Shown here one piece after another: positions 1,956 to 33,504 of a stretch of 64,000 nt of DNA; within the stretch, counting starts at the first letter, position 1, and each line of letters begins with the position of its first letter. The position numbers and the translations under genes were made by a program. The notes beneath the pieces were generated by a model. The model was given only the letters and a program-made list of their open reading frames with translations. It was not told the origin of the DNA and made no database searches. Source of the DNA: Phycisphaerae bacterium (GTDB lineage: Bacteria; Planctomycetota; Phycisphaerae; UBA1845; UTPLA1); NCBI GenBank assembly GCA_023150615.1, contig JAKLKO010000012.1, positions 1 to 64,000 of the forward strand, given 5' to 3'.

Positions 1956-2801
1956 CTAGCGCCGTCGGCGGATCGCAACCAGCCCGCCCAAGGCGAGCAG
2001 GGCCATCGTCGTCGGCTCAGGTATCGCGGACGTATTGATCGAGAGGCCGCCATAGACCGTGGCGCTTCCTCCCGGGGCAAGGTTCAGATTCCACTGATAC
2101 GCGCCGGTGAAGTCGAACGGACCCTGCGGCAGCCCTGTATTGTCGAGGTTGTCGACCAACGCATCGACCATCCTCACGCGGACCGCGCCTGCTGCCGTCG
2201 TACTCCACGGATCGACTTCCCACGCGTTGGCATTCGGGCCGAAGAACTCGGTCGAAATGGCGCCTTCCGAAATGCCCATCCGGTTCGTTGCGAGCAGGAC
2301 GGCGCTATCCCCGCTCGCCGTACCCAACACGTCGTAGTCGGCGTAGTTGAAGAGCGAGACCGCCAGCGGTGCCACCGTCGAAAGGTTTGTCACGACCATC
2401 GTCGCGGTGACGCGGGCCATCGTAGTGCCGGCGCCATCCATGTCGTCAATGTCGTATCGCAGGGTCGCGCTCATCAGGCCCGCGCCCGCGACGTTCGTCC
2501 ACGAGAGCGTCGCGATGTCGCCCACGTAGGTCTGCGAGAAACCCTGGCCCGCCGCGCTGCTGAACGACGACTCGCGGGTCGCGCCCGGCAGGCGGAACCA
2601 CCACCAGGTTCCGAACATCTGGTCGCCTGACGCCGAGGCCGACGCACTGAAGTGCGCGCTGCTCGTTCCGGTCGTCGATGTCGAGCTGGTCGGTATCGTC
2701 GTGAATCGGAACCACGCGTTCCCGGCCGTGATGTTCCCCTGCGCGAAGACGGACGAAGCCATCCCGAGCACCAGAGCCACTACCAACAGTTTGCGAAGCA
2801 T
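1956..2801 (-). CDS. PEP-CTERM sorting domain protein
   Basis: This 281-residue secreted protein has a signal peptide at about residues 1-20 and a C-terminal PEP-CTERM tail: Ile-Pro-Glu-Pro-Thr-Thr, then the same Met-Ala-Leu-Leu helix as its neighbour, then four Arg. The open frame extends 34 codons further upstream, but ATG 2801 is chosen because it opens the signal peptide and follows GGGAGGAAAGG. The mature part is Ser/Thr/Gly-rich with no domain I can name. Apart from signal and tail it is not obviously homologous to PEP-CTERM gene 1. The shared promoter motif suggests the two are co-regulated. Confidence 0.88.
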   Translation of the reverse strand: MLRKLLVVALVLGMASSVFAQGNITAGNAWFRFTTIPTSSTSTTGTSSAHFSASASASGDQMFGTWWWFRLPGATRESSFSSAAGQGFSQTYVGDIATLSWTNVAGAGLMSATLRYDIDDMDGAGTTMARVTATMVVTNLSTVAPLAVSLFNYADYDVLGTASGDSAVLLATNRMGISEGAISTEFFGPNANAWEVDPWSTTAAGAVRVRMVDALVDNLDNTGLPQGPFDFTGAYQWNLNLAPGGSATVYGGLSINTSAIPEPTTMALLALGGLVAIRRRR

Positions 2802-2992
2802 TGACCTTTCCTCCCTCAGACTCGATCGATGTCGCGGGCACCGCGCATCCGATCGGTGTACCCGAATGTTCCTTCTCCGCGGCAGATCGCCGCTCCGAAT
2901 CACACGTTCTGGAGTGCTGGGACGCTTCTCTCCGGCATCCGAGCGCGCAGATGGCTGGAAGGGTTCCGCCTCCTCCGCTACTCCAAGATCGC

Positions 2993-3022
2993 ATGGTATC
3001 GGAAATCGACCCCGAAAGTCAA
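2993..3022 (-). promoter_or_regulatory. Candidate promoter of PEP-CTERM gene 2
   Basis: Minus-strand TTGACT (rc of 3017-3022) and TACCAT (rc of 2993-2998) are separated by 18 bases. CATTGACTTTC, 15 bases and TAC match the arrangement upstream of PEP-CTERM gene 1 exactly. The predicted leader is about 190 nucleotides. Confidence 0.5.
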
Positions 3023-3203
3023 TGGGCTTGTACGGCGCGGCCGGAACCAGGGATCGGGTTGTAGATGTGTTCCTAATCTATTATTTGACAGCATTTTACG
3101 ACCTTCGTAGTGCCGGAGGCTGGGATCTGCCATTCTCCAGGACCGAAAATGGGTGAAAACCACTATCGCGAGACAGCGAAACGTCAAACCTCGCCACTCA
3201 AAT

Positions 3204-3251
3204 CGCCGCCGAGCGACTGATCACGAGACTCGCTCAGGTCGTTCGGCGGCG
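3204..3251. other. Imperfect inverted repeat upstream of nuoH
   Basis: Bases 3204-3217 and 3238-3251 are complementary at 13 of 14 positions, the exception being a G-T pair. The pairing continues inward (CTGA 3217-3220 with TCAG 3234-3237) across a bulge. No T run follows on either strand, so it is not an obvious terminator. It could be a leader hairpin or protein site. Confidence 0.4.
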
Positions 3252-3438
3252 AGCCTCTCGGCGATCCGGCACAAGGGTCCGCCATCCGCGTCGGAACCTC
3301 GGCTCGCCAGGAGCCTCTCCCTTGCGCGCCGCAACACGCCGAACACCCTCATTGACCCGCGAACCAGGAGTCCATCCCAAGTCCCGCTCGCCGCCCCCAT
3401 TTGTATTCGTGAAATCCGGCACTAAGCTATTCGCGACG

Positions 3439-4692
3439 ATGACCGCGATGGTTCAGGATATCCTCGGGTCCCAGCTTGGCTTGAGTCTCTGTTTCATCGC
3501 GGTCTCGATCCTCGTCATCCTCACCGCCGTCGCCTACTGCATCTACTTCGAACGCAAGATCGCCGCATGGACGCAGGATCGCTACGGCCCGAACCGCGTC
3601 GGCCCCCTCGGCCTGCTCCAGCCCGTCGCCGACGGGATCAAGTTCATCCTGAAGGAGGACTTCGTTCCCGGGCGTGTCGATCGGGTGCTCTTTCACGTCG
3701 CGCCGATGGTGGCGTTCATCGTTGCAATGATCGGGTTTGTCGTGCTGCCGTTCGGAGGTCGGATCCGCTGGCCGTGGATGGAGGAAGGCACCGAACTGCT
3801 GCTTCAGGGCGCGAGCATCGACATCGGCCTGCTCTACCTGCTGGCGGTCGGATCGATGGCCGTATACGGCGTGGTGCTTGGCGGCTGGTCGAGCAACAAC
3901 AAGTACGCGTTCTACGGGGCGATGCGGGCCGCGGCGCAGATGCTGTCGTACGAGATCCCGATGGGACTGGCGCTGCTGACGGTCATCCTTGCGACCGGCG
4001 CGCTGCGGCTGGAGTCAATCGTCGATGCGCAGGTCGCGCATGCATGGAACCTCCTGCTGCATCCGGTCGCATTCCTCATGCTGCTGACGACGGCGCTGGC
4101 CGAGACGAACCGCGCGCCGTTCGATCTCGCCGAGGCGGAGCAGGAGCTGGTCGGCGGCTACCACACGGAATACACGTCGATGAAGTTCGCGCTGTTCTAC
4201 CTCGGCGAATACGCGCACATCATCACGGCATCGGGCCTTCTGGCGACCGTGTTCCTCGGGGGCTGGGAACCGGTGCCGTTCACGCGGCTGCTGGCCGGCA
4301 CGACGTGGGGCGGATGGCTGCACTGGATCGCGTCATCGACGTCGCCGCTGGCGGGTTTGGTTCGGCTCGGCGTGTTCGGCGGCAAGATCGCCTTCTTCGT
4401 GTTCGTGTTCATGTGGGTGCGGTGGAGCCTGCCGCGCTTCCGCTTCGACCAGCTCATGCGTCTGGCGTGGAAGGGCCTCGTGCCGGTGGGCATGGGCATG
4501 CTGGCCGTGCAGGGCTGGTTGCTGTACCGCGGGACACCGGTGCACTGGTCGGCGCCCGTGGCCGAGGTCCTGTTGCTGGTCATCGCCGGCGCGGTGAACG
4601 TCGCGAGCGGGCGCGAGATCACCGGCCGGCAGGCGAGCCTGCTCCGCGCGGCGTCGGTGCGCGGTGAGGTCGGCGGGACGCCGGCCCGCTGA
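3439..4692 (+). CDS. nuoH: NADH-quinone oxidoreductase subunit H
   Basis: NuoH is the membrane subunit of complex I that forms the quinone-binding cavity with NuoB and NuoD. About 417 residues with many hydrophobic helices are predicted. Diagnostic motifs are Tyr-Phe-Glu-Arg-Lys (36-40), Gly-Pro-Asn-Arg-Val-Gly-Pro-Leu-Gly-Leu-Leu-Gln-Pro (50-62), and the Glu-Thr-Asn-Arg-Ala-Pro-Phe-Asp-Leu-Ala-Glu-Ala-Glu stretch near 221-235. It is longer than the roughly 325-residue E. coli protein, mainly through a C-terminal extension with another hydrophobic segment. The start is uncertain: ATG 3439 or 3448, neither with a clear Shine-Dalgarno; the frame is open upstream to 3322. It is the first gene of the nuoHIJKLMN operon. 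Confidence 0.95.
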   Translation: MTAMVQDILGSQLGLSLCFIAVSILVILTAVAYCIYFERKIAAWTQDRYGPNRVGPLGLLQPVADGIKFILKEDFVPGRVDRVLFHVAPMVAFIVAMIGFVVLPFGGRIRWPWMEEGTELLLQGASIDIGLLYLLAVGSMAVYGVVLGGWSSNNKYAFYGAMRAAAQMLSYEIPMGLALLTVILATGALRLESIVDAQVAHAWNLLLHPVAFLMLLTTALAETNRAPFDLAEAEQELVGGYHTEYTSMKFALFYLGEYAHIITASGLLATVFLGGWEPVPFTRLLAGTTWGGWLHWIASSTSPLAGLVRLGVFGGKIAFFVFVFMWVRWSLPRFRFDQLMRLAWKGLVPVGMGMLAVQGWLLYRGTPVHWSAPVAEVLLLVIAGAVNVASGREITGRQASLLRAASVRGEVGGTPAR

Positions 4693-4711
4693 GCGAGGTG
4701 CGACGAACGAC

Positions 4712-5266
4712 ATGCCATCGAGAAACTGGAGAGAGACCGACATCGTCGTCGTGGACCAGCCGGAGTTGACGCTCTCCGAGCGGCTCTATCTCCCGCAGAT
4801 CTTCGGCGGCATGCGGACGACGCTGCGGCACATGTTCTCCAAGGCGATGCGCGACCGGACGGTCGTGCAGTACCCGGAACAGAAGCGGCCGATGCGAATC
4901 GAAAACTACCGCGGCGTGCACCGGCTGAACCGCGACGAACAGGGCCGCGTGGCGTGCGTGGCATGCTTCATGTGCGAGACGGCCTGTCCGGCGCACTGCA
5001 TCCACATCGAGGGCGCGCCGTCGCCGTGGCCGGACCGCGAGAAGTACCCGATCCAGTTCGACATCGACGAGTTGCGCTGCATCTACTGCGGCATGTGCGA
5101 AGAGGCGTGCCCGGTGGACGCGATCGAGCTGACGCCGGAATTCCGGCTGGTCGGGCAATCGCGCGAGGAGATGATCTTCGACAAGGAGAAGCTGCTGATG
5201 GTCTTCGACCAGACGCGACATCTCAAGCCGCGGAAGAACCCGCCCATCACCGGCTATGCCGGATGA
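4712..5266 (+). CDS. nuoI: NADH-quinone oxidoreductase subunit I
   Basis: NuoI is the ferredoxin-like subunit carrying clusters N6a and N6b, which pass electrons toward N2 in NuoB. At 184 residues it shows two four-cysteine motifs: Cys82, 85, 88, 92 and Cys123, 126, 129, 133, each ending Cys-Pro. ATG 4712 is 20 bases after the nuoH stop and follows GAGGTG. In-frame codons exist further upstream but overlap nuoH. It is the only peripheral-arm subunit encoded in this operon. Confidence 0.96.
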   Translation: MPSRNWRETDIVVVDQPELTLSERLYLPQIFGGMRTTLRHMFSKAMRDRTVVQYPEQKRPMRIENYRGVHRLNRDEQGRVACVACFMCETACPAHCIHIEGAPSPWPDREKYPIQFDIDELRCIYCGMCEEACPVDAIELTPEFRLVGQSREEMIFDKEKLLMVFDQTRHLKPRKNPPITGYAG

Positions 5267-5356
5267 CGGCGCGGGACGATTCGGCGCTTCGGCGGCGCGG
5301 CCGGGCGCAACGGGCGAGACCGGCGCGGGTCTCGGGACGGACAGAGTGGAACGATC

Positions 5357-6112
5357 GTGACGTCCGGCGGATGGGTTTATGTGACGTATACGGTGGCGGC
5401 GCTCGGCGCGCTGGCGCTGTATCTTGCGCTGCCGCGCGGCCGCGCGTCGCATCGCACCGCCGGCTTCGTCTTCGGTGTCGCGTCCATGGCCGGCCTGCTG
5501 ACCGTGTTGCGATACGGCCTGGGCGACCCGGCGGCGTCCAATCTCTATTTCCTGATTCTCTCGTTCCTGACCGTCGGCGGTGCGGTGCGGGTCGTGACGC
5601 ATCCCAAGCCGGTCTATTCCGCGCTCTATTTCGTCATGGTCGTTCTGGCGACGGCCGCGCTGGCGGTGCTCGCCGGTGCGGAGTTCCTCGCCGCCGCCCT
5701 CGTGATTGTCTACGCCGGCGCGATCCTCGTGACGTACGTCTTTGTCATCATGCTCGCGCAGCAATCGGAAAGCGCGGCCGGCGCGCTGACGTATGACACG
5801 ACGGCCCGCGAGCCGGGATGGTCGGTCGTCGCGGGATTCGTGCTGGTCGCGACGCTCGCGGGCGTGATCCTCGAGCGGCCCTGGCCGGCGGCCGAGGGCG
5901 AAGCGGGCGTCGCCGCGTCGAACGCCCTGTCGATCGGGCGCGAGGTGCTGACGCGCTACGCGGTGTCACTGGAGCTGGCGGGCGTGCTGCTGCTCGTTGC
6001 GATGATCGGAGCGCTGGCCATCGCGCGCAAGCCGGTACCGACTGATGAAGTGCCGCCGCCGGACGAGACGGCGCCGCCGGGCGAGACCGGTCGGCGCGTC
6101 CGACCGTTCTAG
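5357..6112 (+). CDS. nuoJ: NADH-quinone oxidoreductase subunit J
   Basis: NuoJ is a polytopic membrane subunit of complex I. The 251-residue product has about five hydrophobic helices and the family stretch around Leu-Ala-Ala-Ala-Leu-Val-Ile-Val-Tyr-Ala-Gly-Ala-Ile (about residues 113-125). It continues with a Pro/Glu-rich hydrophilic tail that makes it longer than the E. coli protein. The GTG at 5357 is taken as start, since no better candidate lies between it and the nuoI stop 90 bases upstream. The Shine-Dalgarno is weak, so the start is the least certain of the operon. Confidence 0.92.
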   Translation: MTSGGWVYVTYTVAALGALALYLALPRGRASHRTAGFVFGVASMAGLLTVLRYGLGDPAASNLYFLILSFLTVGGAVRVVTHPKPVYSALYFVMVVLATAALAVLAGAEFLAAALVIVYAGAILVTYVFVIMLAQQSESAAGALTYDTTAREPGWSVVAGFVLVATLAGVILERPWPAAEGEAGVAASNALSIGREVLTRYAVSLELAGVLLLVAMIGALAIARKPVPTDEVPPPDETAPPGETGRRVRPF

Positions 6113-6135
6113 GCGAGGCGAACGGGAGCCATCGA

Positions 6136-6438
6136 ATGCCGTACGCGGTGCCCTTCATGATGCTCGGCGCGGTGCTGTTCGGGATCGGCCTGGTCGGCTT
6201 CCTGACGCGCCGCAACCTGATCATCATGTTCCTCTGCACCGAAGTCATGTTTCAGGGCGTGCTGCTGAACCTGATCGCCATGGGCCTGCGGCACGGCAAC
6301 CTGCAGGGCCAGGGATTCGGCCTGTTCGTGCTTGTGGTCGCGGCGGTCGAGGCCGGCCTGGGTCTGGCGATCGTCGTCCTGCTCTATCGGCGGCGCGGAA
6401 CGCTGGACGCTGAGTCGTGGCGAACGATGAGAGGATGA
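6136..6438 (+). CDS. nuoK: NADH-quinone oxidoreductase subunit K
   Basis: NuoK is a small antiporter-like subunit (MrpC homologue) with three transmembrane helices. The 100-residue length matches the family exactly. Acidic residues inside the membrane are visible: Glu in Cys-Thr-Glu-Val-Met-Phe (helix 2) and Glu in Ala-Ala-Val-Glu-Ala (helix 3), both conserved proton-path positions. ATG 6136 lies 23 bases after nuoJ. The next gene begins 10 bases after its stop. Confidence 0.96.
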   Translation: MPYAVPFMMLGAVLFGIGLVGFLTRRNLIIMFLCTEVMFQGVLLNLIAMGLRHGNLQGQGFGLFVLVVAAVEAGLGLAIVVLLYRRRGTLDAESWRTMRG

Positions 6439-6448
6439 GCGCGGACGC

Positions 6449-8401
6449 GTGACGGGTGACGTAACACAATTGGCCGTCTGGATCCTGCTGGCGCCTCTGA
6501 TGGGGTCCATCCTGATCGGCATGATCGGACTCCGCGGGCTGCGCGACCGCGCGCACTGGCTCGCCATCCTCGGGGTCGCGGCGGCGCTCGTCGCGGCCGT
6601 GATGTTGTTCAACGACCTGCGCGCCATTCCGAACGCCGAGCGCGCGGCCGCGTTCGAGAAGTCGCACGTCGTCTACGACTGGTTCCGGGCCGACGCCCCG
6701 ACGGGCGGTCGCGGCTGGTTCCCGGTGGAATTTCGCATCGATTCGCTGACGAGCGTCATGCTGCTGACCGTGCTCTCGGTCTCGCTGCTCGTCATCGTCT
6801 ATTCCGTCGGCTACATGCGCGATCATCACGGCCAGGGGGAGCGCGGCTACGAACGGTTCTTCGCCTTCCTTGCGCTCTTCGTCTTCTCGATGTGCGCGCT
6901 GGTGCTGGCCGGGAACTTCCTTCTGCTCTACCTCGGCTGGGAACTCGTCGGCCTTTGCAGTTACCTGCTGATCGGCTTCTACTATCAGAAGCCCAGCGCG
7001 GCCGCCGCGGCGAAGAAGGCGTTCCTGGTCAATCGCGTCGGCGATTTCGGGTTCGGGCTTGGCATCCTGCTGATCTACTGGCGCTGCGGCGACCTGAGCT
7101 ACACCTACGTGTTCTCCGACGCGGGCCGCGCCGCGCTCGACGGTTACGAGACGATCGTGGCGCTGCTGCTCTTCTGCGGCGCGGTGGGCAAGAGCGCGCA
7201 GCTCCCGCTGCACGTCTGGCTGCCCGACGCGATGGAAGGCCCGACGCCGGTCAGCGCGCTCATTCACGCCGCGACGATGGTCACCGCCGGTGTCTACATG
7301 GTCGCCCGCTGCGGCGCGATCTTCACGGCCTCGCCGACGGCCATGGCGGTCGTGGCGATCATCGGCGGCGCGACGGCGCTGTTCGCCGCGACGATCGCCC
7401 TCACGCAGTTCGACATGAAGCGCATCCTCGCGTATTCGACCATCAGCCAGTTGGGCTACATGTTCCTCGGCCTGGGCGTGCACGCGCCCGCGTCGGCCAT
7501 CTTCCACCTCTTCACGCACGCATATTTCAAGGCGCTGCTGTTCCTCGGCGCGGGCAGCGTCATGCACGCCATGGCCGGCGAAATCGACATCCGCCGATTC
7601 GGCGGTCTGGCGCGCGGGCTGAAGATCACCGCCGCGACGTTCTGGATCGGCGGCCTGGCGCTGGCCGGGTTCCCGCTGTTTTCGGGCTTCTGGAGCAAGG
7701 ACGAGATCATCCACGCGGCGCTGAATCACGCGCCGATCCTCGGCGGGCTTGCGCTGCTGACGGCGCTGCTGACGGCCTTCTACACCTTCCGCATGATCTT
7801 CCTGGCGTTCCACGGTCCGCAGCGATTGCCGCCCGGCGTCGAGCACGCGCACGAGTCGGTCGCCTGGATGACGGTCCCGCTGCTACTGCTGTCGATCGGC
7901 GCGATCGGGGCGGGGGGCGTGGCCATGGCGTCGGGGGACTTCAACATCCACGCGTGGCTGGGACCGGTCGTCGCCCCGCACGGGGAATGGTCGGGCGCGG
8001 AATCGCACGCCGGCGGCGAGGACCTCACGCTGATGATCGTCTCCGGTGCGCTGTCGATCGTCGGGACCATCGCGGCGTGGTACGTCTATCGCCGGCGGCC
8101 GGCGATCGCGACGGTGGTGCCGATCCTGCTGCCCGGACCGCATCAACTGCTGTATCAGAAGTACTACGTCGACGAGTTGTACGATGCGCTGATCGTCTCG
8201 CCGCTGCGCCGACTGGGGCGTTTCTGCTTCGGCATGGACCGATACGTCATCAACACGCTGTTGTGGCTGATCACAGCGGTGCCGCGATCCATCGGCTTCA
8301 TGCTCAAGGAGACGATGCAGGTCGGAGCGATCCAGGGCTATGCAATGGGCATGGCGGTCGGCGTGCTGCTCATCGTCTGGGTCGTGCTGGCAGGATCGTA
8401 G
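6449..8401 (+). CDS. nuoL: NADH-quinone oxidoreductase subunit L
   Basis: NuoL is the distal antiporter-like proton-pumping subunit of complex I. It is 650 residues and very hydrophobic. It shows the proton_antipo_M signature (His-Val-Trp-Leu-Pro-Asp-Ala-Met-Glu-Gly-Pro-Thr-Pro-Val-Ser-Ala, about 253-268), the conserved Trp-Glu-Leu-Val-Gly motif near 165 and Phe-Trp-Ser-Lys-Asp-Glu near 411. A C-terminal region with the amphipathic lateral helix and terminal membrane helix is present. The start is GTG 6449, 10 bases after the nuoK stop. Tight spacing argues for one transcript. Confidence 0.96.
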   Translation: MTGDVTQLAVWILLAPLMGSILIGMIGLRGLRDRAHWLAILGVAAALVAAVMLFNDLRAIPNAERAAAFEKSHVVYDWFRADAPTGGRGWFPVEFRIDSLTSVMLLTVLSVSLLVIVYSVGYMRDHHGQGERGYERFFAFLALFVFSMCALVLAGNFLLLYLGWELVGLCSYLLIGFYYQKPSAAAAAKKAFLVNRVGDFGFGLGILLIYWRCGDLSYTYVFSDAGRAALDGYETIVALLLFCGAVGKSAQLPLHVWLPDAMEGPTPVSALIHAATMVTAGVYMVARCGAIFTASPTAMAVVAIIGGATALFAATIALTQFDMKRILAYSTISQLGYMFLGLGVHAPASAIFHLFTHAYFKALLFLGAGSVMHAMAGEIDIRRFGGLARGLKITAATFWIGGLALAGFPLFSGFWSKDEIIHAALNHAPILGGLALLTALLTAFYTFRMIFLAFHGPQRLPPGVEHAHESVAWMTVPLLLLSIGAIGAGGVAMASGDFNIHAWLGPVVAPHGEWSGAESHAGGEDLTLMIVSGALSIVGTIAAWYVYRRRPAIATVVPILLPGPHQLLYQKYYVDELYDALIVSPLRRLGRFCFGMDRYVINTLLWLITAVPRSIGFMLKETMQVGAIQGYAMGMAVGVLLIVWVVLAGS

Positions 8402-8417
8402 GGAGTCGAGCGGACGC

Positions 8418-10190
8418 ATGGGCTTTCTCGCGCAGCACATCCTGTCGGTCATCATCTTCTTCCCGATCGCCGCCGCGATCGGACTCCTGTTGATGCCCGC
8501 GTCGGACCCGCGCGCGATCCGCCGCAATGCGTTTCTCGCATCGCTCGCGACGCTCGTGTTCGCAATCGTGGCAACCGTCTATTACGTCGATCAGCAGCGC
8601 GGCCCGCAGGGCTTTCACGGGCTCGCGCTCGCCGAGCGCTGCCAGTGGATCAGCGATCCGCTGCCGTACAACCTCGGGGGCGATCGGCCGGCGAAGCTGC
8701 AAGTTCAGTATTACGTCGCGCTCGACGGCATCAGCCTGCCGCTGTTGCTGCTGACGGCGCTGCTGACGCCGCTGGCGATCTGGTCGAGCTTCGAGAGCAT
8801 CCGCGAGCGCGTCAGGGAATACTACGCGCTGCTCCTGCTGCTGCACGGCGCGATGCTGGGCGTGTTCTGCGCGCGAGACCTGCTGCTGTTCTACGTCTTC
8901 TTCGAGTTCACGCTCATCCCGCTCTACCTGATCATCGGCATCTGGGGCGGCTCGCAGCGGCGCCGCGCGGCCGACATGTTCTTCCTCTACACGCTCGCCG
9001 GCAGCGTGCTCACCTTCGCCGCCGTGCTTTACCTCGGCTGGCAGGCGTTCGCAAACGTCCGCGACCCGGCGGATGGCGCGCGCGTGCTGACCTTCGAGCT
9101 GGAACGGTTGTACCAACTCGCCGCCGAAGGCCACCTGACGCCAAGCGTACAGTCGATCCTCTTCCTCGCGCTGTTCGCCGGGTTCGCGATCAAGGTGCCT
9201 CTGTTCCCGTTCCATACGTGGCTGCCGCTGGCGCACACGGAAGCGCCGACGGCCGGCTCGGCGATCCTGGCGGGCGTGCTGCTGAAGCTCGGCACGTACG
9301 GGTTCCTGCGGCTGAGCCTGCCGATGCTGCCCGTGGCGTCCGTGACGTTTGCACCGTGGATCGCCGTGCTGGCGATCATCGGAATCCTGTACGGCGCGCT
9401 GGCGGCGTGGGTGCAGACGGACATCAAGAAGCTCGTCGCGTACTCGTCCGTGTCGCACCTGGGATTCTGCCTGCTCGGCATGTTCAGCCTGAAGATGTCG
9501 GGCCTGACCGGCTCGCTGCTTTACATGGTGAATCACGGACTGTCGACCGGCGCGCTGTTTCTTCTCGTCGGGATGATTTACGACCGCTACCACACGCGCG
9601 AGATGGCCGAGCTTGGCGGCCTGGCGCGACGGATGCCCGTCTTCGCGTTCTTCCTGATCTTTTTCACGCTGTCGAGCATCGGCCTGCCCGGACTGAACGG
9701 GTTCATCGGCGAGTTCCTCGTGCTGCTCGGAGCGTTCACGTCGCACAGCACGGCCGGAGGGACGCCGCCCGGACCGCTCGGCGTCTGGTACGCCGTGCCG
9801 GCCGCGCTGGGCATCGTGCTGGGCGCGATCTACATGCTGCATCTGTGCCGCGCCGTGCTATTCGGACCGCTCCGCGAGCCGCGCGGGTCGCAGGGCCACG
9901 CGGCCGATGCGCACGGGACGACGCTGCCGGCGGACCTGACGCTGCGGGAGACCGCGCTGCTCGCACCGCTGGCGGCGTGCTGCCTGTGGCTGGGCGTCGC
10001 GCCGAAGCCGCTGTTCAACGTCATGCAGCCGCCCGTGCAATCGCAGGTGCTCGCGCGAATGCGGCCGGCAATGACGGCGACGCTCGCCGGCAATCGCCCG
10101 GCGTCGCCGCGTGTCACGGATGCCGATCCGAAATCAATACGGACTCGCGCCGTCCAAGCGAACCCGTCGGCCCGAACGGAGGGTCGTTGA
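8418..10190 (+). CDS. nuoM: NADH-quinone oxidoreductase subunit M
   Basis: NuoM is an antiporter-like proton-pumping subunit. The 590-residue product carries the Phe-His-Thr-Trp-Leu-Pro-Leu-Ala-His-Thr-Glu-Ala-Pro-Thr signature of NuoM (about residues 265-278), a membrane-embedded Glu in Phe-Phe-Glu-Phe-Thr-Leu-Ile-Pro, and the Lys-Lys-Leu-Val-Ala-Tyr-Ser-Ser motif. It is longer than E. coli NuoM (about 509), with a hydrophilic Arg/Pro-rich C-terminal tail. ATG 8418 is 17 bases after nuoL; 26 additional in-frame upstream codons overlap nuoL and are rejected. The stop abuts the nuoN start. Confidence 0.95.
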   Translation: MGFLAQHILSVIIFFPIAAAIGLLLMPASDPRAIRRNAFLASLATLVFAIVATVYYVDQQRGPQGFHGLALAERCQWISDPLPYNLGGDRPAKLQVQYYVALDGISLPLLLLTALLTPLAIWSSFESIRERVREYYALLLLLHGAMLGVFCARDLLLFYVFFEFTLIPLYLIIGIWGGSQRRRAADMFFLYTLAGSVLTFAAVLYLGWQAFANVRDPADGARVLTFELERLYQLAAEGHLTPSVQSILFLALFAGFAIKVPLFPFHTWLPLAHTEAPTAGSAILAGVLLKLGTYGFLRLSLPMLPVASVTFAPWIAVLAIIGILYGALAAWVQTDIKKLVAYSSVSHLGFCLLGMFSLKMSGLTGSLLYMVNHGLSTGALFLLVGMIYDRYHTREMAELGGLARRMPVFAFFLIFFTLSSIGLPGLNGFIGEFLVLLGAFTSHSTAGGTPPGPLGVWYAVPAALGIVLGAIYMLHLCRAVLFGPLREPRGSQGHAADAHGTTLPADLTLRETALLAPLAACCLWLGVAPKPLFNVMQPPVQSQVLARMRPAMTATLAGNRPASPRVTDADPKSIRTRAVQANPSARTEGR

Positions 10191-11801
10191 GTGTCGGTGC
10201 ACCCGATGATCTCGATGCTCGCGCCGGAGCTGGTGCTCATCGTGGCGGCGTCGCTGCTGCTGATCGTCGGACACTCGCGGCGTGCGTTCGTCCTCGACAG
10301 CCTGCCCGCCCTGACCCTGATCGCCCTCGGCGTCGCGCTCTGGCTGGCGATCGGCCGGCCGGGCGGCGGGATCCGATCAACGCACTCGCTTCAGATCGAC
10401 GCGCTGGTCTACTACGCGCGATGGATCACGCTGTGCGTCGGCGTGCTCATCGTGCTCGTCAACCGGCACGTGCCGGCCGCGCGCGAACGCGGCGAGTATT
10501 TCGCACTGATGCTCTTTTCGCTGGCTGGCATCAGCCTCGTCGCCGTCGCCGATGACATGATCCTGCTCTTCTTGGCGCTCGAGCTGGTCAGCGTTCCGAC
10601 TTACGTGCTGATCGGCCTGTCGCGGACCGACGTCCGCGCCCAGGAAGCGACCGGCAAGTACTTCTTCCTCGGCGCGTTCGCCGCCGCCTTCATGCTCTAC
10701 GGCTTCAGCTTCCTCTACGGCATCGGCGGAACGACGACGCTCTTCGGCAGCTCCGCGGCCGAGCGATCGCTCGCACAACTCCTCGTTGATCAGCCGGCGC
10801 TCCGCTCCGACCCGCTCACGATGGTCGGCCTGATGCTCGTCCTCGCGGGGATCGCCTTCAAGCTCGCCGCCGTGCCGCTGCACTACTACGTGGCCGACGT
10901 CTATCACGGCGCGGCGTCACCCGTTGCCGGCATGCTCGGATTCGTGCCGAAATTCGCCGGAATCCTCGCGCTGGTCCGCGTCGCGTCGGTCATCGACTGG
11001 CAATGGACGCCGGCGACGTTCTGGCTGCTCTGGGCGATGGCCGTCGCAACGATGTTCGTCGGCAACACGCTGGCACTCATGCAGACCAACGCCAAGCGCA
11101 TGCTCGCGTATTCCAGCGTCGCGCACTCGGGCTACATGCTCGTCGCGCTGCTGGCGGGCCCCGGATTGGCGAGCACGGCAATCGACGCGCCGACGCGAAA
11201 CGGCGTCACCGCCGCCCTGTTCTACATGGCGATCTACGGGTTGATGAACCTCGGCGCGTTCGCCGCCCTGGCCTACATCCGCTCGCCGGAGTCGGACGAA
11301 CCCGTCGATGATCTGGAGGACCTGGCCGGCGCATCGCAGCGACACCCGGCCGCGTGCCTGGCGCTGGCGGTCTGCGTGCTCAGCCTGATGGGCATCCCGC
11401 CGATGGCCGGCTTCCTCGGAAAGCTCTACGTCTTCTCGGCCGCGATCGCCGCCGCGGATTCGACGCCCCATCCGGCCGCGATGATCTGGCTGGTCGTGAT
11501 CGGCGTCGGCAACTCCGCGATCGCCGCGGCGTATTACCTTCGGATCATCGCGACGTGTTACCTGCGGCCCGCGCTCGGACCGGGCGTCGCCACGCGGTGC
11601 GACGCGCTGCGGGCCGGACTGGCGATCTGCGCCATCGGCGTCGTGGGGTTCTTCGCGTTTCCCAACGTCTTGTCACGAGAAGCCGGACGCGCCGGACAGG
11701 TCTGCGCCGCAGCGCGGAGCGAACGCACGATCGGCCAGACGGCCGCCCGGCGAACCACAGCGAGGGAATCGCCCGCCGCTAGCGCACTTCCTCGTGAATG
11801 A
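10191..11801 (+). CDS. nuoN: NADH-quinone oxidoreductase subunit N
   Basis: NuoN is the third antiporter-like subunit of complex I. It is 536 residues with many helices, the Val-Pro-Leu-His-Tyr-Tyr-Val-Ala-Asp-Val-Tyr motif (about 226-236), Lys-Arg-Met-Leu-Ala-Tyr-Ser-Ser, and Gly-Ile-Pro-Pro-Met-Ala-Gly-Phe-Leu-Gly-Lys (about 402-412). GTG 10191 directly follows the nuoM stop. The final 45 residues are hydrophilic, Arg/Ala-rich and poorly family-like. They read into the end of the convergent lipoprotein gene, overlapping it by 23 bases. It is the last gene of the operon. Confidence 0.94.
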   Translation: MSVHPMISMLAPELVLIVAASLLLIVGHSRRAFVLDSLPALTLIALGVALWLAIGRPGGGIRSTHSLQIDALVYYARWITLCVGVLIVLVNRHVPAARERGEYFALMLFSLAGISLVAVADDMILLFLALELVSVPTYVLIGLSRTDVRAQEATGKYFFLGAFAAAFMLYGFSFLYGIGGTTTLFGSSAAERSLAQLLVDQPALRSDPLTMVGLMLVLAGIAFKLAAVPLHYYVADVYHGAASPVAGMLGFVPKFAGILALVRVASVIDWQWTPATFWLLWAMAVATMFVGNTLALMQTNAKRMLAYSSVAHSGYMLVALLAGPGLASTAIDAPTRNGVTAALFYMAIYGLMNLGAFAALAYIRSPESDEPVDDLEDLAGASQRHPAACLALAVCVLSLMGIPPMAGFLGKLYVFSAAIAAADSTPHPAAMIWLVVIGVGNSAIAAAYYLRIIATCYLRPALGPGVATRCDALRAGLAICAIGVVGFFAFPNVLSREAGRAGQVCAAARSERTIGQTAARRTTARESPAASALPRE

Positions 11802-32322: not shown

Positions 32323-33504
32323 TCAGGCGCGGCCGAGGAGTTTTTCGAGCCGATCCAGCCCCTTGTCGATGCTCTCGCGATCGGTGGCAAAGCTGAGCCG
32401 GACGTGTGCATCGGAGCCGAACGCGATGCCGGGCACCAGCGCGACGTGCGCCTCTTCCAGCACGCGGGCCGCAAAGCCGACCGAATCGTTCACGCCCAGC
32501 CGCGCGTACGTCCGTGTAACGTTCGGGAAGCAATAGAACGCCCCCGTCGGCCGCACGCACGTCACGTCACGAAGCCGCGACAACCGCTCGTGCATGTGCG
32601 CGCCGCGCTTCGCGAATTCGTCGCGCATCGAATCGACGCAGGACTGATCACCCGCAAGCGCCTCCGCCACGGCGACCTGGTTGAACGTGCACGGACCGCT
32701 CGTCGTGTGGGACTGAATCTTCACCATCGCATCGATGATCGGCCGCGGTCCAGCGGCGTATCCAACGCGCCAGCCGGTCATCGCATAGCTCTTGCTGGCC
32801 GCGTTAATCGTGACCGTGCGCTCGTACCAGTCGGGCGCGACGGCGGCGAAGCTCTTGAACTGCATCGCGCCGAAGACGAGCCGATCGTACATCTCATCGG
32901 AGATGACGATCAGGTCGTGGCCCCGAAGCGCGGCGGCGATCCGCGCTGTCTCGTCCGGCGTGTACGTGAATCCGCCGGGATTGCTGGGGCTGTTGAAGAT
33001 GAGCGCCCGCGTCCGGGGCGTGATCGCCGACCGCACCTGCTCGGGCGTAAGCTTGAAGCTGTTCTGCTCGTCGCCGCGCAGAAAAACCGGCATCGCGCCG
33101 CAGAGTCGGATCTGCTCCGGAAAACTCACCCAGTACGGGATCGGCAGCAGGACCTCGTCGCCCGGATTGACGATCGCCGCAAGCGCGAGAAAGATCGCCT
33201 CCTTGCCGCCGCACGTCATGATGACCTGCGCCGGGTCGTACGTCAGACCGTTGTCGCGGCGGAACTTCGTGCAGACGGCCTCCCGCGCCTCGACCAGCCC
33301 GAATCCCGGTTGTGCGTACTTCGTCCGGCCTTCGTCGATGGCTCGCTTCGCGACCGCCTTGATCGGTACCGGCGTGTCGAAGTCGGGTTCGCCCTGGCCG
33401 AAGGAAACGACGTCGATGCCGGACCGTCGCATGGCCGCCGCCTTCGAGGACACCGCCATGGTGGCTGAACCCGTCAGCGCGGCAGCCCGTTGGGAAATCT
33501 GCAT
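32323..33504 (-). CDS. Class I aminotransferase, aspartate aminotransferase type
   Basis: This PLP-dependent enzyme probably interconverts aspartate and oxaloacetate. At 393 residues it has family length. The PLP lysine lies in Asn-Ala-Ala-Ser-Lys-Ser-Tyr-Ala-Met-Thr-Gly-Trp-Arg-Val-Gly-Tyr, with Ser-Pro-Ser-Asn-Pro-Gly-Gly, Ile-Ser-Asp-Glu-Met-Tyr and Arg-Leu-Ser-Phe-Ala near the end (carboxylate-binding Arg). The N-terminus resembles the I-gamma subgroup (AspB/AspC of thermophiles and planctomycetes). Substrate preference cannot be fixed from sequence alone. It is the first gene of the four-gene minus-strand operon. Confidence 0.88.
   Translation of the reverse strand: MQISQRAAALTGSATMAVSSKAAAMRRSGIDVVSFGQGEPDFDTPVPIKAVAKRAIDEGRTKYAQPGFGLVEAREAVCTKFRRDNGLTYDPAQVIMTCGGKEAIFLALAAIVNPGDEVLLPIPYWVSFPEQIRLCGAMPVFLRGDEQNSFKLTPEQVRSAITPRTRALIFNSPSNPGGFTYTPDETARIAAALRGHDLIVISDEMYDRLVFGAMQFKSFAAVAPDWYERTVTINAASKSYAMTGWRVGYAAGPRPIIDAMVKIQSHTTSGPCTFNQVAVAEALAGDQSCVDSMRDEFAKRGAHMHERLSRLRDVTCVRPTGAFYCFPNVTRTYARLGVNDSVGFAARVLEEAHVALVPGIAFGSDAHVRLSFATDRESIDKGLDRLEKLLGRA

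Follow-up and report, generated by a model that had tools for sequence, protein, structure and literature searches.

The membrane half of a respiratory complex I, encoded apart from the rest of the enzyme, raises the question of which enzyme it belongs to. In the window (the whole stretch of DNA analysed, bases 1-64000 of contig C3), seven genes, nuoHIJKLMN, stand without nuoA to nuoG. The first-pass annotation had proposed either that the remaining subunits are encoded elsewhere, or that this is a reduced complex drawing its electrons from another donor, such as ferredoxin. Sequence comparisons indicate that the operon very probably encodes the membrane half of a complex I of the ordinary, NADH-oxidising type whose genes are dispersed, the other subunits being encoded at three further loci. 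The first proposal was borne out, and the second was not upheld for the window operon.

The nuoHIJKLMN operon

Pfam models identified the seven open reading frames as NuoH, a 4Fe-4S dicluster protein (NuoI), NuoJ, NuoK, and three PF00361 proteins (L, M, and N), and the best NCBIfam models were, in gene order, NuoH, NuoI, J, K, L, M, and N (Table 1). The genes are co-directional, with spacings of at most 90 bases. In our reading, the ATG at 4712 is a likelier start for nuoI than the longest-ORF start at 4664, and the start listed for nuoM is likewise favoured over that of its longest ORF. The coordinates of the first-pass annotation hold, its gene content, nuoH to nuoN including nuoI, with neither nuoA nor nuoB-G, was confirmed by these models, and searches of the genome for NuoA, B, C, D, E, F, and G gave no match on C3. 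A nuoA hidden upstream of nuoH was considered; none was found there, and the gene sits on contig C16.

Table 1. Genes of the window operon and the stretch preceding it.
Feature	Position	Strand	Supporting evidence
intergenic stretch upstream of nuoH	2802..3438		no nuo gene
nuoH	3439..4692 (start 3439 or 3448)	+	PF00146 4.8e-115; placed by NuoH tree
nuoI	4712..5266	+	TIGR01971 119.1 bits (cut-off 113.05); two 4Fe-4S clusters, cysteines 8/8
nuoJ	5357..6112	+	PF00499 1.4e-31
nuoK	6136..6438	+	PF00420 4.4e-26
nuoL	6449..8401	+	PF00361; TIGR01974 671.6 bits (cut-off 407.5)
nuoM	8418..10190	+	PF00361; TIGR01972 551.3 bits (cut-off 263.8)
nuoN	10191..11801	+	PF00361 2.6e-59; TIGR01770 328.9 bits, slightly below cut-off 332.6

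The 3.4 kb upstream of nuoH hold two minus-strand genes for proteins with PEP-CTERM sorting signals (616-1584 and 1956-2903). The gap of 637 gene-free bases described earlier agrees with our reading if the nearer of these begins at the methionine of MLRKLL, at base 2801. A promoter scan of positions 2700-3600 returned a single sigma-70-like match, on the minus strand, and no match on the plus strand. Downstream of nuoN are two minus-strand genes without a Pfam match, and the window genome and its relative G010 have genes downstream of nuoN in common.

The remaining subunits of the canonical set

The window genome (G000; 4,103,135 bases in 70 contigs, completeness 99.62%, contamination 2.04) encodes all of the missing subunits. 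The genes nuoA, nuoB, and nuoC are adjacent on the minus strand of C16 (31242-32716, with nuoA at 32369-32716), nuoD stands alone on C15 (17547-18797; NuoD match 6.2e-105), and nuoG, nuoF, and nuoE all lie on C69, within 66069-76539. On that contig, the nuoG match is at 66393 on the plus strand (the gene is L014 2070-3740), and the matches for nuoF (73932-74444, 2.5e-46) and nuoE (76027-76449) are on the minus strand. By our selection of reading frames, one other gene separates nuoF from nuoE, and several separate nuoG from nuoF. The search for a nuoABCDEFG operon, suggested at the outset, thus recovered all seven genes, distributed over three contigs rather than gathered in a single operon, and nuoE, nuoF, and nuoG were found once each, NuoE and NuoG having no second copy in the genome. 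A second, weak PF01512 match (59.2 bits, on C6) is, in our reading, RnfC-like. The third PF01058 match of the genome, on C4, was not counted as NuoB because it adjoins a [NiFe] hydrogenase large subunit; the region (L017, G000:C4:4000-18000) carries the large-subunit gene together with apparent maturation genes.

Several neighbours of these loci were also noted. After the solitary nuoD comes a gene for a NorB-type nitric oxide reductase (L004 9833-12172). The gene between nuoE and nuoF (L014 10632-11900) encodes a 422-residue, membrane-protein-like product with only a sub-threshold EpsG match; it occupies this position in five of the six relatives in which the nuoE-nuoF stretch was read (G010, G013, G002, G014, and G005, but not G008), and is present in multiple copies in G002 and G005. 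An 806-residue protein with a weak methyltransferase or spermine-synthase-like match is encoded near nuoE on C69 (L014 13817-16237) and, in G010, between nuoD and nuoE (L120 5811-8099), a placement that is perhaps the trace of an older D-x-E-y-F order.

Conserved residues and family scores

The subunits were compared with those of the E. coli nuoA-N operon (NC_000913.3), using E. coli residue numbers that we take to mark the ligand and channel positions. All cluster cysteines were kept in NuoI (8/8), NuoB (4/4), NuoE (4/4), and NuoF (4/4), as were the 12 of 12 ligands in NuoG. Channel residues were kept in NuoH (5/5), NuoK (2/2), NuoL (7/7), and NuoN (5/5), and at four of five positions in NuoM, where the position of K173 is occupied by Met. 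In NuoJ, two of the three residues tried were kept, with E55 replaced by Leu. Departures from E. coli also occur at three of six further positions in NuoF and at two of the four compared in NuoD. Scored against their best NCBIfam models, NuoG (387.5, cut-off 470.05) and NuoE (135, cut-off 142.4) fall below threshold, and NuoF exceeds one cut-off (459.2 against 389) and falls short of another (529.1 against 558.65).

A second complex I set

The genome encodes a second set of complex I genes on C22 (approximately 230,146-243,888; L005 6147-18206 and L015 710-2389), in one direction and in the order I-A-B-C-D-H-J-K-L-M-N, interrupted after D by a sulfotransferase-family gene. Its NuoL is a protein of 857 residues with histidine-rich stretches. 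It has no E, F, or G gene beside it, and the searches of the genome for these three subunits gave no match on C22. Complexes of 11 subunits without NuoEFG occur in other bacteria, according to PMC11238625. The gene content of C22 is the make-up of such a complex, whereas the window set differs in that E, F, and G are present in the genome; the idea of another electron donor fits the C22 locus better than the window operon.

The window proteins share 41-88% identity with the canonical loci of relatives, compared with 27-45% for window H, J, L, and M against four second-set loci (tblastn). In a tree of 23 NuoH sequences (the window, E. coli, four second-set, and 17 canonical), a branch (100/99) separates the four second-set rows from all others, and the window sequence pairs with that of G010 (100/99). 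A clade of rows from family f1, to which the window genome belongs, is weak (62/27), and E. coli is a long branch that may be joined falsely to the second set, as the tool itself warned. The tree sets the window NuoH apart from the second NuoH type of its own genome and places it with the canonical type. That type lies in an A-to-N cluster in G034, G017, G023, and G031, and likewise at loci L045 and L050-L053; of five tree rows labelled as intact operons, four carry A to N, and in G038 just A to I remain together. Relatives in which NuoF shares a cluster with the canonical NuoH type include G034, G023, and G037.

Dispersal of nuo genes among relatives

Gene layouts were compared by eye in 26 genomes, 14 of family f1 (among them the window genome) and 12 from elsewhere in the order, chosen from 41 with fifteen omitted. 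Within f1, nuoB and nuoC are together in 14/14 genomes, and nuoA accompanies them in 11/14 (a contig end may explain its absence in G015). nuoD is more than 20 kb from nuoB and nuoC, or on another contig, in all 14, and equally far from the canonical nuoH in 13 of the 13 genomes where nuoH was found, though contig ends could hide linkage in some fragmented genomes such as G006. nuoE and nuoF lie within 5 kb of each other in 12/14, and D, E, and F form a group in 5/14. The HIJKLMN block is contiguous in 10 of the 11 f1 relatives read (G006 and G011 were not among these, and G001 has only H and I there). nuoG adjoins nuoH in 10 of the 12 genomes where both were found. Since the two exceptions, the window genome and G010, pair in the NuoH tree, the separation of nuoHIJKLMN from nuoG was probably a single event common to both. 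Outside f1, A to I form one cluster in nine of 12 same-order genomes, the exceptions being G019, G022 (67% complete), and G029. The scatter is more than mere fragmentation, since ABC, D, and GHI also lie far apart in G002 and G013, each of which is a single contig.

The wider class was sampled with 120 genomes of at least 90% completeness, searched with the window genome's own NuoH and NuoD. Among the matches listed, a canonical NuoD (at least 58% identity) was paired with NuoH in at least 68 of the 120; the other 52 were left uncounted, with one protein missing or only more distant NuoD matches among those listed. Of these 68, by the matches listed, 17 have nuoD and nuoH no more than 20 kb apart, 10 have them on one contig at a distance of approximately 128 kb or more, and 41 have them on different contigs, a class in which fragmentation may hide linkage and to which G040 does not belong, its nuoD being cut by a contig end. 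Two genomes, G060 and G076, have two near-equal NuoH matches, of which the one with higher identity was used; the genes are apart either way. Four of the 68 genomes consist of a single contig (G002, G013, G064, and G076), and nuoD and nuoH are apart in each of them; in G014, also a single contig, they are separated by 163 kb. Gene order was read in 19 of the 80 named loci found by NuoH. Five of the 19 (L045 and L050-L053) are A-to-N clusters, several others are truncated where a contig ends, and near nuoH in the complete genome CP054190.1 (L048) only G, H, and I are present. A literature search, within the collection and terms used, found no description of scattered nuo genes in Phycisphaerae.

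Which enzyme does the operon serve?

Each part of a canonical complex I has its counterpart in the window genome: the membrane arm (H and J-N in the window, A on C16), the quinone module (B, C, D, and I, with the NuoB and NuoI cluster cysteines complete), and the NADH module (E, F, and G, with cluster ligands kept, NuoE and NuoG scoring under the NCBIfam cut-offs). Because the other subunits are encoded in the genome, no reduced or new enzyme needs to be invoked, and the layout is largely common to close relatives. An alternative in which the operon encodes the core of a smaller, NuoEFG-free complex fed by ferredoxin or another donor would account for the lack of adjacent nuoA-G and has precedent in the 11-subunit forms mentioned above. 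It is nevertheless highly improbable, since the genome holds single E, F, and G genes, together with nuoABC and nuoD beyond the C22 copies; the counterparts of the operon lie within nuoA-N clusters in several relatives, and the set that lacks adjacent E/F/G is that of C22. With A-G found elsewhere in the genome, this alternative was rejected for the window operon.

There is similarly very little to recommend the view that the gap is an artefact of assembly or binning, in which a normal nuoA-N operon was broken at contig ends or mixed from two organisms. The window does start at a contig end, the assembly is fragmented, and some gaps in fragmented relatives may have arisen in this way. The loci, however, lie inside their contigs: joining the contigs by their closest ends would leave nuoH approximately 21 kb from nuoD, the nearest, 35 kb from the nuoABC locus, and 70 kb from the nuo genes of C69. 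The examined stretches of C3, C15, C16, and C69 agree in composition (GC 0.657-0.679, tetranucleotide correlation at least 0.985), and similar scatter occurs in single-contig relatives. This explanation was discarded on the basis of those relatives and of the positions inside contigs. A further idea, which we regard as a long shot, is that a single unlinked NuoEFG is shared, docking on both the scattered canonical complex and the C22 complex, such that the cell would alternate a single NADH module between two engines, each reducing quinone and pumping protons, and the genes would be unlinked as a reflection of this sharing.

In the favoured reading, that of a dispersed but ordinary complex I, the operon would supply the membrane arm (without NuoA) and NuoI of a canonical 14-subunit NADH:quinone oxidoreductase, and its products would assemble with the seven subunits from nuoABC, nuoD, and nuoG/F/E. 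NuoF would accept electrons from NADH for transfer to quinone, with NuoH, L, M, and N coupling this transfer to proton pumping. The separation of the genes would be a rearrangement within the lineage, in which the subunits were retained. We infer assembly, NADH use, and proton pumping from homology and conserved residues, and the joining of the products in one complex in the same way, because the loci are unlinked.

Comparison with known systems and implications

Every subunit type of the E. coli enzyme is also present in the window genome, with the cluster ligands and most of the checked channel residues kept. The E. coli genes form one operon, whereas those of the window genome occupy four contigs; nuoC and nuoD are separate genes, unlike in E. 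coli, and NuoG has 556 residues compared with 908. Cyanobacteria offer a parallel in layout. PMC6337551 describes dispersed ndh genes in Synechococcus CS-601, with ndhCKJ, ndhH, ndhAIGE, and ndhB apart; with the ndh letters matched to the nuo letters used here, the break points are very similar, A-B-C being together, D alone, and H-I-J-K together. Cyanobacterial NDH-1 lacks NuoEFG, according to PMC9414918, whereas the window genome has E, F, and G, and its L, M, and N stay with H-K. Two complex I sets per genome, as found here, are described for Rhodobacter sphaeroides (operons IA and IE; PMC4859585) and for Kuenenia (two sets of 14 subunits; PMC7709395); unlike in those accounts, one set is scattered here and the other has no adjacent E/F/G.

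The frequent lack of clustering of complex I genes in this planctomycete class calls for caution in annotation based on operons or score cut-offs. Since NuoE and NuoG score below their cut-offs and the genes are unclustered, pathway-completeness calls can report an NADH dehydrogenase as missing when it is present. PMC11266412 reports that NADH dehydrogenase was predicted to be missing from most Phycisphaerales genomes, with nuoF and nuoG unannotated, and that most genomes of the order UBA1845 had a complete complex I annotation. Family f1 represents a graded series of operon break-up, and is useful for asking how the stoichiometry of 14 subunits is achieved without one operon.
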